Shown: piece by piece, positions 2,518 through 12,235 of the stretch
Numbering within the stretch: the first letter of the stretch is position 1
Layout of the letters: every line of letters begins with the position of its first letter
Source: Trichodesmium sp. MAG_R03
Lineage (GTDB): Bacteria > Cyanobacteriota > Cyanobacteriia > Cyanobacteriales > Microcoleaceae
DNA length: 35,034 bases
Direction: 5' to 3'
Assembly (NCBI GenBank): GCA_023356535.1
Contig: JAKQYF010000025.1
Span: forward strand, 1 to 35,034
The notes under the pieces: model-generated
Told to the model about the DNA's origin: nothing
The model's database searches: none
What the model saw: the letters and a program-made list of their open reading frames with translations, nothing else
Position numbers and translations under genes: made by a program

Positions 2518-3363
2518 CTACTGATGAAATAACATAGTGATTAAAGGGAAAAAATTTAACAATATCCAAATCCAAAAGCAACAATTATTTTCTTGCATAG
2601 AAAAATCTGCTTCTCCTAGTAGGGCATCAATTCTTTCTGTTAAATGGTTAGGGGGAGTTGTGCAACTAAATGCTGCATAACAGTTAGTTTCTTGAGTAAA
2701 GCGATCGCTCACCATTAATAACAAAGTTTCCGCCAACAATAACCCATCCACTTGTTTTTTTGCCCACTGGTCGGCACGGATTTCTCGCAGAGTCAAAAGT
2801 TCATCCCACAAAACTTTAGTATTTGGTAAAAAAGGGACTATTTTACCCAACCAACCAAGCCAGAAAAACCAAAAAGTATCTCGATAATAATCATGAGCTT
2901 GTTCGTGATTTAAAACTGCATCAAGTTGATCAGAATTTAATTTTTCTATAAGTCCTTTACTAACAACTAATTTAGAATGCCAAAAGCCTATTTGAGCACT
3001 AAATAAAATTGGATTATCAAGCAAAAATACAGATTTATCTTTAATATTTATTTGAGGATAATCATTAATCTTTTGCACAGACTTCCAACCTTTATAGGCT
3101 AAAACCAAACCCAAAATAGATGCCCATCCGCAAAAACTCCAGGCCAATATATAACTAATCCATCCACTTGATAATCCTAGCATTTCTCCTTGAGGCCCCA
3201 TACAAATTACTGCAATGGCCGTTGCAATTAACAGTAGGGGAGAAGAAATAAATAGTAGTAAAGAGCGCTGCCAACGGACTAACCAAAGAGTAGAAATAAA
3301 AAAATCTAGACATCTTAGACTAATAGCTAAACCTAGAGCCAAAAATATAAGAATTAGGTGCAT
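2518..3363 (-). CDS. petP: BlaR/M56-type membrane metalloprotease, likely PetP
   Basis: This 281-residue protein has several hydrophobic segments near the N-terminus (about 1-25, 35-60 and 70-95) and a zinc-protease motif HEQAH (about 153-157). A further hydrophobic stretch lies at the C-terminus. This is the M56/BlaR1 layout without the beta-lactam sensor domain. Its ATG overlaps the stop of the upstream BlaI-type gene (TAATG), so the pair is probably translationally coupled. In Synechocystis the equivalent pair PetR and PetP controls the plastocyanin/cytochrome c6 switch, and PetP with copper triggers loss of PetR. The presence of petE and petJ next door supports the same role here. Family assignment is firm, and the specific petP identity is inferred from context. 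Confidence 0.82.
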   Translation of the reverse strand: MHLILIFLALGLAISLRCLDFFISTLWLVRWQRSLLLFISSPLLLIATAIAVICMGPQGEMLGLSSGWISYILAWSFCGWASILGLVLAYKGWKSVQKINDYPQINIKDKSVFLLDNPILFSAQIGFWHSKLVVSKGLIEKLNSDQLDAVLNHEQAHDYYRDTFWFFWLGWLGKIVPFLPNTKVLWDELLTLREIRADQWAKKQVDGLLLAETLLLMVSDRFTQETNCYAAFSCTTPPNHLTERIDALLGEADFSMQENNCCFWIWILLNFFPLITMLFHQ

Positions 3364-3785
3364 TATTTTTTCTCCTTCCTAGCTCTTCGTATAACTTTTA
3401 GTTTCTGAGCGATCGCCTCTATTTGCTCCATACTAGCAGAATCTAGACTATCGGCAAAAGCGGCCACCACATCAGGATTTCCTACAGCCAGAAATTGATT
3501 TAATTGTTGGTGCGCTCTCAAGATTTTGGCTTCTTGACGAGAAATCAAAGGTCGCCATACAAAGGCACGCTCTCTTGGATCACAGATTAACCAACCTTTC
3601 TGAGTTAGGCGACGTAGTACAGTTGTTATTGAAGTATAAGCTAACTCTCGTTTAGGGTCAGCTAGAATAATTTCATGTACCTGTTTAACTGTGGCACAAC
3701 TTAAATCCCAAACAATATTCAAAATTTCTGTTTCCAGAGGACCAAGGGACATTTGTTGTGGACGGTAATTTGGTAGAGGACTCAT
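3363..3785 (-). CDS. petR: BlaI/CopY-family transcriptional regulator, likely PetR
   Basis: This 140-residue protein has the BlaI/MecI/CopY winged-helix layout. LGPLETEILNIVWDL (about 14-28) opens the domain, and TVKQVHEIIL followed by YTSITTVLRRLTQKGWL (about 50-66) is the helix-turn-helix and wing entry. The C-terminal half is helical and suited to dimerisation and proteolytic control. The gene is first in a two-gene unit with the M56 protease. In Synechocystis, PetR represses petE and activates petJ when copper is scarce. It is transcribed divergently from petE here, about 820 bp away, which fits that role. Confidence 0.83.
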   Translation of the reverse strand: MSPLPNYRPQQMSLGPLETEILNIVWDLSCATVKQVHEIILADPKRELAYTSITTVLRRLTQKGWLICDPRERAFVWRPLISRQEAKILRAHQQLNQFLAVGNPDVVAAFADSLDSASMEQIEAIAQKLKVIRRARKEKK

Positions 3786-4070: not shown

Positions 4071-4103
4071 AGGTTGTGAACTTATTTTCAACCTATTTTT
4101 TAC

Positions 4104-4355
4104 CGAAAAATTGGGTTTCAAGCCTCGCCCATAAGCGGGCGACTTTTTAGTTGATTTTTTTCACAGGCTTAGTCCATCTTGCTTTTTAGTTCACAAGAAA
4201 TATATTAGTCGCGGGTGGGCATACCGAGACAAAAAACGGACATTGAGGCCAGCAGCCAGACTACTGCCAAAGTAGCAGCAGCCTGTGAAATGTCAACCCG
4301 CCGGGGGCTACAGCTCGGTTGTTACCCAGTGCCTTTAGGCCGGGGAGGATGTCAA
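4104..4355 (+). mobile_element. IS200/IS605 (IS608-like) non-autonomous element, copy 1
   Basis: This 252-bp element has no transposase. It is preceded by the tetranucleotide TTAC (4100-4103), begins CGAAAAATTGGG and ends GGATGTCAA. TTAC as left cleavage site and TCAA at the right end are the IS608 pattern. Subterminal hairpins are visible at both ends: TCGCCC/GGGCGA near the left and GCCTTTAGGC with a GC-rich flank near the right. There are no target duplications, as expected for single-strand transposition. A second copy lies at 11716-11971 on the other strand. Confidence 0.8.
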
Positions 4356-4395
4356 CAAAGTCCAGCTACGTAATTCCTGAATAAATAGTTTTAGC

Positions 4396-4425
4396 ATGAC
4401 AATCTGTCTTAATTTGTTGTAGAAT
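4396..4425 (+). promoter_or_regulatory. petE promoter with candidate PetR operator
   Basis: A -35-like ATGACA (4396-4401) and a -10-like TAGAAT (4420-4425) are separated by 18 bp. A perfect dyad GACA-ATC-TGTC (4398-4408) overlaps the -35 element, a typical repressor position. The same dyad class, GACA-AAA-TGTC, occurs upstream of petJ. The start codon lies about 180 bp downstream, implying a long leader. The promoter elements are inferred by eye. Confidence 0.5.
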
Positions 4426-4604
4426 AAATTTTTAAGTAGATTAGGTATTAAGATTTGTCGTTATATAACAAAGTGTAAATTTTATTCCTCTCAAATCAAT
4501 CTTATCGAGAAGTTTGAAGTTGCTGGACAAAATTTAATATAGCGAAGCCTTTTCCTGTCTACCTACTTAGATACAGAATAATCTAAAAAAACAGGGGTTT
4601 AAGT

Positions 4605-5030
4605 ATGCGTTTTATCTCTTCTTTTTCCAAGTCTATAATAATACTAGCTTCTGTAGTAATGCTAGTTATCGGTAGTCTAGTATTTTCTAGTCCAGCAGAA
4701 GCAGTAGAACATGTAATCAAGATGGGTCCTAACAAAAAGCCTCCATATGTATTTAGTCCTAGTGAAGTAACTGTTCAACCAGGTGATACAGTTAAATTTA
4801 TACAAGTTAATAGTCGTCATAATGTAATGTTCGATACCAGCACCAAGAAAATTAAAGATCGTACACAAAGAAAAATTTTCAAAAAACTTTCCCACAGAAA
4901 ATTGTTGAAGAAGAAGAATGATCAAATTGTTATAACAATACCAGACGAGACTAAGCCTGATACTTATGACTTTTTCTGTACTCCTCACAAGAGTTCAGGA
5001 ATGAAGGGCCACCTAATAGTAAAATCATAG
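4605..5030 (+). CDS. petE: Plastocyanin (basic type)
   Basis: This 141-residue precursor has a thylakoid-lumen signal peptide (residues about 1-33, ending SSPAEA). The mature cupredoxin carries the type 1 copper ligands: histidine in SRHNV, cysteine and histidine in FFCTPH, and methionine in SGMKGH. Plastocyanin carries electrons from cytochrome b6f to photosystem I. The central segment (STKKIKDRTQRKIFKKLSH, then RKLLKKK) is strikingly lysine/arginine-rich. I count 22 basic and 10 acidic residues in the mature chain. It is divergent from petRP and, apart from IS66, adjacent to petJ. A more distant plastocyanin-like cupredoxin remains possible because of the odd charge, but ligands and length fit petE. 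Confidence 0.87.
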   Translation: MRFISSFSKSIIILASVVMLVIGSLVFSSPAEAVEHVIKMGPNKKPPYVFSPSEVTVQPGDTVKFIQVNSRHNVMFDTSTKKIKDRTQRKIFKKLSHRKLLKKKNDQIVITIPDETKPDTYDFFCTPHKSSGMKGHLIVKS

Positions 5031-5052
5031 TAGAACTTAACTTGTAAATTAC

Positions 5053-5107
5053 CGAAAAATTTGGTTTAAAGCCTCGCCCTTCTAGGGCGAGTTTTTAATT
5101 ATTTTTT
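5053..5107 (+). repeat. IS608-like left end, solo
   Basis: This is an isolated copy of the left end, preceded by TTAC (5049-5052) and starting CGAAAAATTTGG with the same subterminal hairpin as the full elements. No right end or gene is attached. It lies about 20 bp after the petE stop codon. Confidence 0.7.
5073..5096 (+). terminator. Likely petE terminator inside an IS left-end hairpin
   Basis: A perfect 8-bp stem CTCGCCCT/AGGGCGAG with a TCT loop (5073-5091) is followed by TTTTT and a T-rich stretch. It has the form of an intrinsic terminator and sits just after petE. The same hairpin is the structural left end of an IS608-like element. Confidence 0.55.
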
Positions 5108-5320
5108 TGAATACATATTTTTATAATTTTGTTAATTTATAGTGGTCGAATATTGGGCACGGGCATAACTAAATGCTCAAATTAAGTCAAAGATTACTTC
5201 TGAATTGCGCGTAGCAATGTAATTAGTTAGCCGCGCTTAGGCACTCCGATATCTAAAAGTTCAGTATTTTAGGGAGTGGATAGTTATTGTTATTTTTAAT
5301 AAATATTTTTAAAATTTTAG

Positions 5321-7140
5321 GTAAGGATTCAAGTGAGAGCGATCGCTTCGGTAGTCAAAGTCTGCATACTTGCTGGAAATATTATAGGGTTGACAAAAAA
5401 ATTAAACTTAATACAGTAAGGATATGAGTGATTCAGTACCATCCCTGACTTCAGAAAACCTCAAGCAGTTGTCAAGAAAAGAACTGGTAAGAATGATCCA
5501 GGTCAGAGGGATTAAGCTTTCCCACTTGCTCCGCCAACCCTCAAGAATGATTCAAGGAGCAGACGTAGGAATCAGAGAAAGAGCTAATAAGTCATCATCA
5601 TCTAGAGTGATATGCCTGACACCACAGGACACGAAAGCCTTTAAAGACTGCTCAAAGAAATCAACCACAGAACGTCCCTGGCGACGACAGGTTTGCACTA
5701 CACTCAACAAATTAGCTGTGTGCTGAAATCGCTCCATGCTTCTTGAGCCACTATTAACTTTTCGTTTGGTGATTGCTTATCGTAATGAACGTTCTGCCAG
5801 ATTATTATCAGGGGGAATCTCTGGATGAAATAGAAAATACCACCATTGATCTGCTTTCAACTTCAAACTACGTAACAGTTTACCCCCTTCATAACCTGCT
5901 TTGTTACTCCATTGCTTCAGGGTTAAATCTACCTTTTCTTTAAATCTCACAGCCCAATAATTATAAAGATACCGATCTTGAGAGTGCTGCCATTGGCTAT
6001 AATGGCGAAATCCTTCATCAATTAAGTCTTTAAAAGCTTGGCCAATCTTTTGATTGTTTTCCCCAGGATGTTGAATCAATCTTTGAAAGTGACGGCGCAG
6101 GTGAGCTAAACATTTCTGTTGGGCCATAACAGGATAACCATTATAAACACTGAGGCCATCACTACTAATCACACCATTGTACTCACTGCCTAACTGGGAT
6201 TCTAGCTCCCTACGACTTCTCGTGTCTGCCCCCGGAATAGACAGAAATCTTTATTGGTAAATACCCATAGCCACTCCTTAATTCCTTTCACGGGCCAAGG
6301 TGTTTCATCTATATGGATTGATGGTTGTTCTGTTTTTAGCCAATTTGATAACTGTTCTACATGAGGTTGAATTGCTTCTTCCAACCTTTGAAGTGTATTC
6401 ACTAAAGTCCCTATACCAATCTCTATTTTCCCTAACTCCCATAACATCTCTTGTTGTTTTTCATAGGGCAGATGTCCATAGTTCCCTAAGCATCCCAGAA
6501 AGGCTTGTAATTTTACCCCCAAATCTTGTCCTGGCATCATTTCTGATAGCCATGAAGCGGATGTGACCATTCTACACCCTTGACATTGGCAAGACATTCT
6601 ACGGTATTCTACTATTTCTATGGGTTTGTCCACCAGTTGTGCTACTTGTTGAGTCTCTATTGTCACTGGTTGCTCTAAAAATTCTGTTTGACCACAATGA
6701 CTACAGCTAGATGGCTCTAAAATTTCTATTCTGTCAACCCTCGAAAACCCTTGGCAGGTTTTCTTCTGATGCCCTGGTTGCCCTCCCGGTCGTCTCTTTT
6801 TTTCTCACAGTTTGAACCATCTTTAGAGTGTTTGGATTTTTCTGATTTTTTGAGCAGGTCTGTTGATGGTGGCTTGGAAGAACTTTTGCTGTCTAAATCT
6901 CGACTAATTCTTAATTTCTCAATTTCTATTTGTAGTTTTTCTATGAGCTTTTGTTGAGTCAATAGTATATTCACCAGTTCCTTTTTTGACAACTAGTTGA
7001 GTTTTTCTGGAGTTAGGAATTGCACTGAATCACTCATCTCCTTACTTTACTATAGTTTGATTTTTTGTCAAACCTATAATATTTCCAGCAAGTATGCAGA
7101 CTTTGACCACCGAAGCGATCGCTCTCACCTGAATCCTTAC
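5321..7140 (-). mobile_element. IS66-family element (decayed)
   Basis: This 1820-bp element starts GTAAGGATTC and ends with its inverse, GAATCCTTAC. It is flanked by a perfect 8-bp direct repeat AATTTTAG (5313-5320 and 7141-7148), the size typical of IS66. The inverted ends are very long, about 170 bp each. They include a HIP1 octamer, a promoter-like TTGACA and the ATGAGTGATTCAGT start of the transposase. The left end therefore carries an inverted, diverged copy of the transposase 5' end (from 5424). The element separates petE from petJ. Confidence 0.88.
5552..7037 (-). pseudogene. IS66 transposase (TnpC/DDE), broken
   Basis: Homology runs from MSDSVQFLTPEKL (start 7037) through a helical region, the zinc-finger segment (SCSHCG and CQCQGC), the DDE domain (HIDETPW; then ISSDGLSVYNGYP; then PPDNNLAERSLR) and the C-terminal tail ending ALSLIPTSAP. 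The frame is broken four times. There is an amber codon at 6993-6995 where the inverted copy at the other end reads Q. There are single-base shifts near 6740 and in a G-run near 6235, and an in-frame TAA at 5777-5779. It cannot make a full transposase. The catalytic residues are otherwise visible, so decay is recent to moderate. Confidence 0.85.
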
Positions 7141-7212
7141 AATTTTAGTAGAAAGAAAAATTTAGCATTAAAAACTCTTTGATAGTAATTAATTAATTTA
7201 ATTGTTGTGTTT

Positions 7213-7256
7213 GACAAAATGTCTTTTGACTTAATATTGAGCTTCATTAATAATAA
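7213..7256 (+). promoter_or_regulatory. petJ promoter with candidate PetR site
   Basis: A perfect dyad GACA-AAA-TGTC lies at 7213-7223. Immediately downstream are a -35-like TTGACT (7226-7231) and a -10-like TAATAA (7248-7253) with 16-bp spacing. The dyad sits just upstream of -35, as for an activator. An alternative -35, TTGACA at 7212, would overlap it. The start codon is about 30 bp downstream of the -10. Confidence 0.5.
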
Positions 7257-7285: not shown

Positions 7286-7645
7286 ATGAAAAAATTACTA
7301 TCAATTGTAGTCTTAGCTATAATCTTTGTTATTGTGGGAATACAACCTCCAGCTTTAGCTGCTGATAATGGAAGCAAAATATTCCAACGCAAATGTGCAA
7401 GTTGCCATAAGGGAGGTATAAACAAATTTAAGAAGGAAAAGACTCTAAAAAAGTCAGATTTAGAAAAATATGGTATGTTTAGTGCAGAAAAAATTATCTA
7501 TCAAGTAACAAATGGCAAAAAACAAATGCCAGCATTTGGTAAGCGTCTCAAGCCTCAAGACATTAAAGATGTTGCAGCTTATGTTATGGCTCAAGCTGAA
7601 AAAGGCTGGCCATCAAATAAACACAAGAAACGTCGTAAAAGATAG
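7286..7645 (+). CDS. petJ: Cytochrome c6 (basic type)
   Basis: This 119-residue precursor has a signal peptide (residues 1-25, ending PPALA). The mature c-type cytochrome has the haem motif CASCH (about 37-41) and the axial methionine in QMPAFGKRL. It is the iron-containing alternative to plastocyanin between cytochrome b6f and photosystem I, used when copper is low. The protein is very basic. I count 26 lysine/arginine against 8 acidic residues in the mature part, and it ends in HKKRRKR, an unusual tail for the family. A purine-rich GAGAGAGAAG ribosome binding site precedes the ATG. A PetR-like dyad lies upstream. Confidence 0.88.
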
Positions 7646-9995: not shown

Positions 9996-10099
9996 CGAGC
10001 CTTGCTAATTGCTGTTTTTATCCCAATGTTGGATATATACGCTACTTAAATCTTGCTTTCATAGAATGACTTTTGAAGCTAAAAAACATAATAACATAA

Positions 10100-10168
10100 C
10101 CTGTGGAAAAAAATCAACTAAAAAGTCGCCCGCTTATGGGCGAGGCTTTAAACCCAATTTTTCGGTAA
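10100..10168 (-). repeat. IS608-like left end of the tnpB element
   Basis: On the minus strand TTAC (10165-10168) is followed by CGAAAAATTGGG and the hairpin GCCTCGCCC/GGGCGAC, as in the copies at 4104 and 11971. It is followed by tnpB copy B. It lies about 20 bp beyond the stop codon of the neighbouring oxidoreductase, so the hairpin may also act as that gene's terminator region. Confidence 0.7.
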
Positions 10169-11291: not shown

Positions 11292-11715
11292 TTCTCTTAA
11301 ACATCCCTTCTCATGGGTACATCCTTAAAATTGTACCTTAGACGCAATGAGTCCTAATGTTCACTGCTTTAAATCCTTGGCAATTTTAACGTCGTGGCAA
11401 TGTCGTTATAATACTTGGGTTTTTTTATAAGTGTTGTCACCGCCTTTAGATCTGGGAACGATGTGGTCAACTTCGATTATATCCCTTGGTCTAAAGTGTA
11501 ATCCACAATGCGCATTTGTTCTTTTGCCGTTTTAACAGCGTTGCAGCTTCCTTCCTTGGGTCTGGGTGTTGGCCAATGCTGCTACTCCAATAAATCCAAT
11601 TACCGTCATAAGGGGATTTATTACCTTTAACTGTGATGTGCCATTCTATAGGGACATCTGAGTGTGGGTTTAGTATATATTCGCTGTTTCTTTAACTTTG
11701 GGGAAATACTTTTTC

Positions 11716-11971
11716 TTGACATCCTCCCCGGCCTAAAGGTACTGGGTAACAACCGAGCCGTAGCCCCTCGCCGGGTTAATCATTTCACAGGCTGCTGCTA
11801 CTTTGCCAGTAGTCCGGCTGCTGGCCTCAATGTTCGTTTTTTTGTCTCGGTAAGCCCACCCGCGACTAATATATTTCTTGTGAACTAAAAAGCAAGAAGG
11901 ACTAAGCCAGTGAAAAAAAATCAACTAATAAAGTCGCCCCAGAAGAGCGAGGCTTTAAACCCAATTTTTTG
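11716..11971 (-). mobile_element. IS608-like non-autonomous element, copy 2
   Basis: This 256-bp element is clearly homologous to 4104-4355, inverted. On the minus strand TTAC (11972-11975) precedes CGAAAA-like sequence (here CAAAAAATTGGG) and the element ends GATGTCAA. It is inserted in the outer intron's maturase remnant between codons for SAKWV and KKYFP. The same position in the inner maturase reads SAHWVKSKYFP without an insertion. Confidence 0.82.
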
Positions 11972-12235
11972 GTAACCCATTTGGCTGACTTATTTGGATG
12001 CCTTCTACTTGCCCATCGACCTCGTCTTATCCATAGGAGATTATCCAATTTGTTGAATATCTTTTTACTGACTACGGCTGAGAAGTAGTTAGCCCATCCC
12101 CTAATTATCGGATTTAGTTTTGCTATTAGAGTTTTAGCAGGGGCATTTTTGTGAAAATCAAATATATCTGCCAATTTACGATAATGAATTTTGATGCTCT
12201 TGGGAGATGGTTTAATCAGTGTTTTAGTTAAACTA
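11902..12235 (-). pseudogene. Outer intron maturase, X-domain remnant
   Basis: Frames spell KTLIKPSPKSIKIHYRKL, then ADIFDFHKNAPAKTLIAKL and NPIIRGWANYFSAVVSKKIF, then GRWASRRHPNKSAKWV. They are very similar to the inner maturase. They are cut on the 5' side by the inner intron and on the 3' side by the IS608-like element (the last 11902-11971 of the open frame is element sequence). The HNH nuclease part lies further on at 11400-11715 in broken form. Confidence 0.8.

Follow-up and report, generated by a model that had tools for sequence, protein, structure and literature searches.

How does one regulator, PetR, bring about opposite outcomes at the genes for plastocyanin (petE) and cytochrome c6 (petJ)? 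The mechanism was stated as unknown for the PetRP system of Synechocystis sp. PCC 6803 (PMC7896320). The question is raised again by a stretch of 35,034 nucleotides from Trichodesmium sp. MAG_R03 (assembly GCA_023356535.1, contig JAKQYF010000025.1, positions 1 to 35,034), hereafter the window, which carries the same regulator, protease and targets as that published system. The same short dyad, GACA-N3-TGTC, stands before both petE and petJ in the window. Judging from comparative sequence data, we consider it highly probable that both dyads are PetR operators that repress petE and activate petJ according to their position at the promoter, and that such operators also drive further genes. At the level of sequence, this reading draws on the conservation of the dyad, its distance from promoter-like hexamers, its inversion in most sites, its occurrence together with PetR and its fit to the published regulon; from these we infer PetR binding, contact with polymerase, start points and the direction in which new targets are regulated.

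The petE dyad, GACAATCTGTC (4398..4408, plus strand), is a predicted PetR operator in a repressing position: the predicted petE promoter ATGACA-18-TAGAAT (4396..4425, plus strand, 10/12 matches) includes its left half in the -35 hexamer. The petJ dyad, GACAAAATGTC (7213..7223, plus strand), ends two bases before the -35 of the predicted petJ promoter TTGACT-17-AATAAT (7226..7254, plus strand, 10/12 in the promoter scan) and forms the core of an extended petJ-type operator, GTGTTT-GACAAAATGTC-TTTTGAC (7207..7230, plus strand), a predicted PetR site. An earlier note on this DNA had pointed to the shared dyad and to its overlap with the -35 of petE and its place just upstream of the -35 of petJ. 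Both dyads are present as it had written them, they are the only two copies of GACANNNTGTC in the window (0.29 expected; 2 of 100 shuffles reach two), and the promoter scan agrees on their placement. The scan returned 13 promoter-like matches in 3 kb versus 8.4 in shuffles, so single promoter matches are weak evidence.

The genes around the dyads have the arrangement expected of a PetRP locus, with petR beside the protease gene petP and with the two candidate targets, petE and petJ, close by. petR (3363..3785, minus strand) encodes a BlaI/CopY-type regulator (Penicillinase_R, Pfam PF03965, E=1.7e-27), the sole PetR homologue found in its own genome (a single match). petP (2518..3363, minus strand), which overlaps the end of petR by one base, encodes a metallopeptidase-like membrane protein with an HEQAH motif (Pfam Peptidase_M48, E=6.3e-06). 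petE (4605..5030, plus strand; Pfam PF00127, E=2.4e-15) and petJ (7286..7645, plus strand; Pfam Cytochrome_CBB3 and Cytochrom_C) start 0.8 kb and 3.5 kb, respectively, from the petR start. The petE dyad falls between petR and petE, in the intergenic region common to both, at a distance of 613 bp from where petR starts. The absence of a dyad before petR itself, also claimed earlier, was borne out: the best site within 400 bp has three mismatches.

Conservation was examined across the phylum. A cut-off of E <=1.3e-38 assigns a PetR orthologue to 109 of 386 genomes; 254 genomes have BlaI-like matches at E 0.001, and the 145 weak ones were left out of the PetR count. The search for petE and petJ covered 80 genomes (65 PetR-bearing and 15 PetR-negative) chosen for family spread, and rows with a tblastn E of 1e-9 or worse were removed before counting (for petE, genomes G070, G215 and G374 plus a fragment in G121; for petJ, petJ-like fragments in G022, G051, G116 and G296). 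Briefly, all four-base inverted repeats with gaps of 0-13 were scanned without bias in 350 bp of upstream sequence, with expectations taken from 20 shuffles. GACA-N3-TGTC ranks first upstream of petE (30/57 sequences from 56 PetR-bearing genomes, 0.05 expected) and first upstream of petJ (34/83 sequences from 62 PetR-bearing genomes, paralogues included, 0.35 expected), as would follow from the earlier claim, with the proviso that the sequences are related by descent and the counts are not independent. Allowing one mismatch within 400 bp, the dyad precedes petE in 43/57 and petJ in 56/83 sequences of PetR-bearing genomes or, counted by genome, petE in 43/56 and at least one petJ copy in 53/62. 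The exact dyad is absent from all 6 petE and all 17 petJ upstream sequences of PetR-negative genomes.

Upstream of petR the exact dyad occurs in 5/79 sequences (0.3 expected). All five adjoin a divergent gene: petJ in G005, G062 and G118, and a PepSY_TM or TonB-receptor gene, toward which the petJ-type face is turned, in G197 and G308. A PetR autoregulation site was rejected on this ground. The palindrome GCGATCGC also scored high in the scan (15/57 petE, 11/83 petJ and 16/79 petR sequences) and was left aside as what we take to be the common cyanobacterial repeat HIP1. Locus L225 (G215:C70) has a further PetR-like frame, incomplete, and a petJ-like gene that point away from each other; the stretch separating the two contains an operator with one mismatch.

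Alignment on the dyad reveals how the two promoters differ. The consensus of 55 petJ sites is AAGTTT-GACA-RNY-TGTC-TTTTGAC, which supports the extended operator assigned to petJ of the window, and that of 43 petE sites is GACA-NNN-TGTC-AWANTT. The better AAGTTT-like flank lies upstream of the dyad in 53/55 petJ sites and downstream of it in 32/43 petE sites (9 opposite, 2 ties); the putative operator is therefore mostly inverted between the two promoters. This inversion, and the apparent reach of the operator to other genes, go beyond the earlier note. At petJ, a -10-like hexamer occurs at offsets 34-39 in 34/55 sites versus 15/55 in a control window, peaking 17 bp past TTGACN, and TTTTGAC follows the dyad in most sites. 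A third PetR half-site within TTTTGAC was considered, TGTC-N4-GACA being enriched (23/83); we read the stretch as a -35 element instead because its sixth base varies (A25 C3 G11 T16) and because the -10-like peak lies 17 bp on. At petE, outside family f6, a -10-like hexamer occurs at offset 20-25 in 20/28 sites, which would make the left half-site the -35.

The same alignments bear on whether the left half of the petJ dyad is itself the -35, in which case PetR would cover part of the -35 in both promoters. In the window, such a promoter (TTGACA at 7211-7216, a 16-bp spacer, and a -10 of AATATT at 7233-7238) scores 10/12, exactly as the preferred one does. Across the 55 petJ sites, however, the -10 signal beyond the conserved block peaks at offset 36, 17 bp past the downstream TTGAC, a -10-like hexamer at 20-25 is found in only 5/55, and few stretches are as well conserved as TTTTGAC. 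The comparative data favour the predicted promoter at 7226-7254, and we regard a -35 within the dyad as very unlikely.

With starts taken 7 bp after the -10, and hence inferred from predicted promoters, the centre of the dyad in the window falls at about -43 in the petJ promoter and at about -29 in that of petE. Sites of class II activators abut or overlap the upstream edge of the -35 and centre near -41.5; by its predicted promoter only, the petJ dyad does abut that edge. In two genomes (G111 and G123) divergent petE and petJ genes share a single dyad, and in two others (G095 and G105) they share a pair of dyads; a shared dyad may do both jobs at once.

The extended petJ-type pattern TTTGACANNNTGTCNTTTGAC, matched without mismatch at 7210-7230 of the window, occurs exactly 130 times in 71 of the 386 phylum genomes. 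All of these are PetR-bearing: 71/109 versus 0/277 other genomes (Fisher p ~6e-50, a value that overstates independence because the PetR-negative set includes distant, clustered lineages). The reversed extended pattern gives one site in the 386 genomes. A scan of an 84,980-species collection, using the extended pattern with its variable base set to A or T, returned at least 117 stretches. Among the matches listed, 113 are cyanobacterial by title and four are not (Algoriphagus, Nitrosomonas, a Bacteroidetes metagenome-assembled genome and Moraxella; L242, L282, L336 and L337), a number that chance could explain in 257 billion bases.

The bare dyad is a different matter. The 5.84-Mb genome of Trichodesmium sp. 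MAG_R03 holds 28 copies versus 43 of the reversed control pattern, and 12 of the 28 fall within open reading frames of at least 80 codons' translation (>=80 aa), so the bare dyad alone is not specific. Counting bare dyads was dropped as a test of specificity, given that 28 copies against 43 neither support nor refute it; the predicted specificity signal is carried by the position and flanks of the dyad. On whether the motif is common genome-wide, which the earlier note had named as a ground for refutation, the outcome is mixed: this genome has the 28 bare dyads, and the extended petJ form is rare and, among the 386 genomes sampled, limited to those bearing PetR. These bare copies are what one would cite for chance palindromes in AT-rich upstream DNA, a reading to which we give next to no credence in view of the conservation at orthologous promoters and the confinement of the extended site to PetR-bearing genomes.

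The predicted sites also agree with the Synechocystis PetRP regulon. Genus g8, which from its PetE and PetJ we take to be Synechocystis-like, has two exact extended sites each in G076 and G093 and none in G014 and G080. In G076 and G093 one exact site precedes petJ, and the other lies 87 bp before a gene for a 126-aa (amino acid) GLTT-repeat protein followed by a 138-aa open reading frame; upstream of petE, both genomes have a petE-type site with a single mismatch and with TACCAT at offset 22. After the 126-aa/138-aa pair, G076 has a frame with a PHP domain, taken as the DnaE N-terminus. In Synechocystis the N-terminal part of dnaE is presumably slr0603, which would make the g8 gene pair slr0601-slr0602. 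An operator with 0-2 mismatches precedes the slr0601-like gene in 4/4 g8 genomes searched. The published PetRP regulon consists of four proteins (PMC7896320), given as petE, petJ, slr0601 and slr0602 in PMC12382314, and the g8 sites precede petE, petJ and the apparent slr0601-slr0602 pair, that is, apparently all four published targets. Slr0601 dropped alongside cytochrome c6 in the proteome of the PetRP study (PMC7896320; PMC12382314), and this joint drop is as expected if both are PetR-activated.

Several observations weigh against the dyads being PetR operators of this kind. A dyad with at most one mismatch is also found in 1/6 petE and 3/17 petJ upstream sequences of PetR-negative genomes, which we treat as background, and 14/57 petE and 27/83 petJ upstream sequences (paralogues included) of PetR-bearing genomes lack even a one-mismatch dyad. 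Neither petE of the window (3:3) nor petE of a relative, G320 (4:1), has the flank asymmetry. A -10-like hexamer at petE offset 20-25 occurs in 22/40 sites versus 17/40 in a distant control window, and in family f6 the petE -10-like peak lies at 30-34 (15/15), where the -35 is a poor hexamer that, by arithmetic, would overlap the right half-site; the predicted placement of the dyad relative to the promoter is firmer across relatives for petJ than for petE. Finally, 38/109 PetR-bearing genomes lack an exact extended site, and shared ancestry accounts for part of the contrast between the two sets, since the PetR-negative genomes cluster in the phylogeny. Those 38 genomes would also suit a different regulator reading the dyad, with PetR acting indirectly. 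This we judge to be very unlikely, a shade more so than a -35 within the petJ dyad: the extended site co-occurs with PetR in 71/71 genomes, the half-sites are of BlaI/CopY type, the sites of the Synechocystis-like genus agree with the PetR regulon, and gel-shift evidence and PetR binding to both promoters have been reported for Synechocystis (PMC7896320).

Does the operator reach beyond petE and petJ? The nearest recognised family start within 480 bp was sought for 119 pattern instances in the at least 117 stretches; families are similarity clusters with Pfam/NCBIfam searches on representatives, and several labels rest on one representative per family. Among the 119 instances listed, the nearest family is petJ (37), a DsbD_2 and Ferric_reduct fusion (18), a TonB-dependent receptor (14), a GLTT protein (7), the unnamed cl8 (5), PepSY_TM (4), the unnamed cl7 (4), an outer-membrane-like protein (3), MbnP (2), DsrE (1) or DUF4347-CHRD (1), with 8 unassigned and 4 non-cyanobacterial. 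The MbnP representative matches the NCBIfam 'MbnP family copper-binding protein' at 7.8e-94. Downstream of the site lie ExbB/ExbD in G308, a di-haem peroxidase and a TonB receptor in G103, and cl7 followed by MbnP in G127. A 259-aa family without a Pfam match stands on the opposite side, in petE-like orientation, at 11 of the 119 instances listed (e.g. L267:3845-4621 and L266:1640-2416) and is possibly PetR-repressed.

Two candidates were set aside. A cluster of TPR proteins (20 loci, 272-648 bp downstream) was rejected as a new target once an alignment of these regions, taken with the sites that lack a downstream open reading frame, showed what by eye is petJ coding sequence; in G127, for example, petJ sits between the site and the TPR gene, which therefore lies behind petJ. 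Sites without a downstream open reading frame were checked for a shared transcript, and a small RNA was dropped since 12/16 of the loci inspected have a related 166-264-aa gene on the other side, in petE-like orientation. In some genomes the gene after petJ on the same strand encodes a TonB protein (G103) or a TPR protein (G127 and others) and is possibly co-transcribed with it (L420:768-2162, L423).

The DsbD_2-ferric-reductase family, found via the motif, was then tested in the 80 genomes used above, which were chosen independently of the motif. An orthologue is present in 44/80, and 30 loci were returned. The 27 loci in PetR-bearing genomes fall into two groups with none intermediate: within 450 bp, the extended operator is present at no more than two mismatches in 15 (0.0 in shuffles), and the other 12 have at least six mismatches. 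One of the three PetR-negative loci (G099) holds a two-mismatch copy with TGTC altered, which may represent decay after PetR loss. The orthologue in the Trichodesmium sp. MAG_R03 genome (C201) has no operator upstream; two other petJ-type sites of this genome, with 0 and 1 mismatch, precede, respectively, a DUF4347-type gene at 84 bp, truncated where the contig ends, and a cl8-type gene at 624 bp.

A petE match at E 0.001 is absent from 7/65 PetR-bearing genomes (G039, G129, G131, G197, G253, G296 and G336), and five of these (G039, G336, G129, G197 and G296) hold exact extended operators. The operator precedes a DsbD_2-ferric-reductase in G039, a short, apparently interrupted copy thereof in G336, an AMIN-Plug TonB-receptor frame in G129 and, in G197, PepSY_TM next to petR. 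These operators fit a role beyond the petE/petJ switch, although the missing petE may also reflect assembly gaps or divergence. We think it likely, with less assurance than for the operators themselves, that PetR is a general copper-starvation activator whose one asymmetric operator, used in two orientations, runs both the petE/petJ switch and a copper acquisition regulon, and that where plastocyanin has been lost PetR is kept for the latter. This regulon may include TonB receptors, ExbB/D, PepSY_TM, MbnP with its di-haem partner, and the DsbD_2-ferric reductase, where 'copper acquisition' is a label resting on family names, MbnP alone being named for copper.

The favoured reading suggests the following mechanism. 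When copper is scarce PetR is, as published, stable. At petE it would cover the -35 hexamer and keep RNA polymerase away; at petJ it would sit just ahead of the -35, ~43 bp from the start and mostly in the opposite orientation, where it may aid polymerase by a class II-like contact. In many cyanobacteria the same activating operator would bring further genes, chiefly apparent copper acquisition genes, under PetR. When copper is present, PetP would degrade PetR and both effects would be reversed. Alternatively, the dyad is the operator and its adjacency to the -35 of petJ is incidental, activation coming from the exclusion of another repressor or from reshaping of the DNA. BlaI-family proteins are known mainly as repressors, and the published account of PetR offers no mechanism for its opposite outcomes, both of which leave room for such an indirect effect. 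A preferred dyad-to--10 spacing fits a fixed protein-protein geometry better: besides petJ, it is seen at 80 cyanobacterial sites of the petJ type that lack a petJ cluster member, where a -10-like hexamer stands at the petJ spacing in 58/80 versus 13/80 in a control window, the -35 there belonging to the search pattern and so giving no independent evidence. Activation without contact thus appears improbable, if less so than the other alternatives, and polymerase contact by an operator-bound PetR remains our preferred model.

Comparison with known systems places PetR in familiar company. Five solved structures, including MecI and penicillinase repressor, are related to it by sequence, and its predicted DNA-reading helix, PxRELAYxSVTTVLxRLTxKGWL, is near-invariant in 78 PetR proteins; in the PetR of the window I replaces the V after S. 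As in BlaI/MecI with BlaR1/MecR1, a Penicillinase_R regulator is paired with a membrane metalloprotease, although PetP falls in Pfam Peptidase_M48 whereas the BlaR1/MecR1 proteases belong to family M56. Compared with the BlaI/MecI operators (TACA/TGTA), the predicted PetR site has a GACA half-site, a three-base spacer and a dual action, and its signal is copper rather than a beta-lactam. The CopY/CopR operator (cop box) is another relative. According to PMC7253601, its consensus RNYKACANNYGTMRNY is a BlaI-family palindrome of KACA half-sites at copper-linked genes and permits GACA, which puts GACA half-sites within the experience of the family. The earlier description of a variant BlaI-type operator therefore stands as to the variant, while its contrast with TACA/TGTA half-sites was incomplete. 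The palindromic KACA/TGTM half-sites of the BlaI/CopY type are found here as conserved GACA/TGTC; the two-base spacer is not, a gap of three topping all gaps of 0-13. CopY is described as a copper-binding repressor, whereas proteolytic degradation and an additional activating role are reported for PetR. The three-base spacer and the asymmetric flank would be the new traits relative to the CopY/BlaI operators, and we place the petE/petJ site within the known PetRP system as a putative variant of the BlaI/CopY-type operator.

PetP has been reported to degrade PetR in a copper-dependent manner (PMC7896320; PMC13421787), and the system is also covered in PMC12292863, PMC9252766 and PMC12382314. 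To the published PetRP system the present analysis adds a defined predicted operator, with its orientation and spacing, and the prediction of a regulon that elsewhere takes in apparent copper acquisition genes. The literature search, which did not extend to the founding 2021 PNAS paper on PetRP, yielded no previous account of the operator motif, so that a prior description is possible.

The surroundings of the two promoters show apparent traces of mobile DNA. Between petE and petJ, 5321-7140 holds a broken transposon-like element, presumably IS66-like, with 168-nt inverted repeats (87%); its right end lies ~70 bp before the petJ dyad, leaving the petJ operator and promoter outside it. A 265-bp stretch upstream of petE (4100-4359) has an inverted copy at 11712-11975 (91% identity) and a shorter one at 10070-10168; situated between petR and petE, it resembles the remnant of a mobile element. 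The petE leader (4426-4560) is ~135 bp longer than in G320, so that the dyad lies at -207 versus -70. Three diverged partial copies of 4426-4560 elsewhere in the genome suggest a repeat inserted between the petE promoter and the gene. The predicted PetE and PetJ are, by eye, unusually rich in Lys and Arg; PetE of the window is 29-40% identical to orthologues (48% to that of G320), and PetR is 50-87% identical.

The predicted operator offers a testable answer to the question of opposite outcomes, namely the same site in mostly opposite orientation with a ~14-bp shift relative to the predicted start. The petE and petJ promoters serve as tools in cyanobacterial biotechnology, and knowing the operator would permit their rational tuning. 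In Anabaena sp. PCC 7120, seven TonB-dependent transporter genes are raised by copper, not iron, limitation, and that 2009 report calls the components that regulate them still to be identified (PMC2771747). PetR is a candidate regulator of these copper-responsive TonB-dependent transporter genes.

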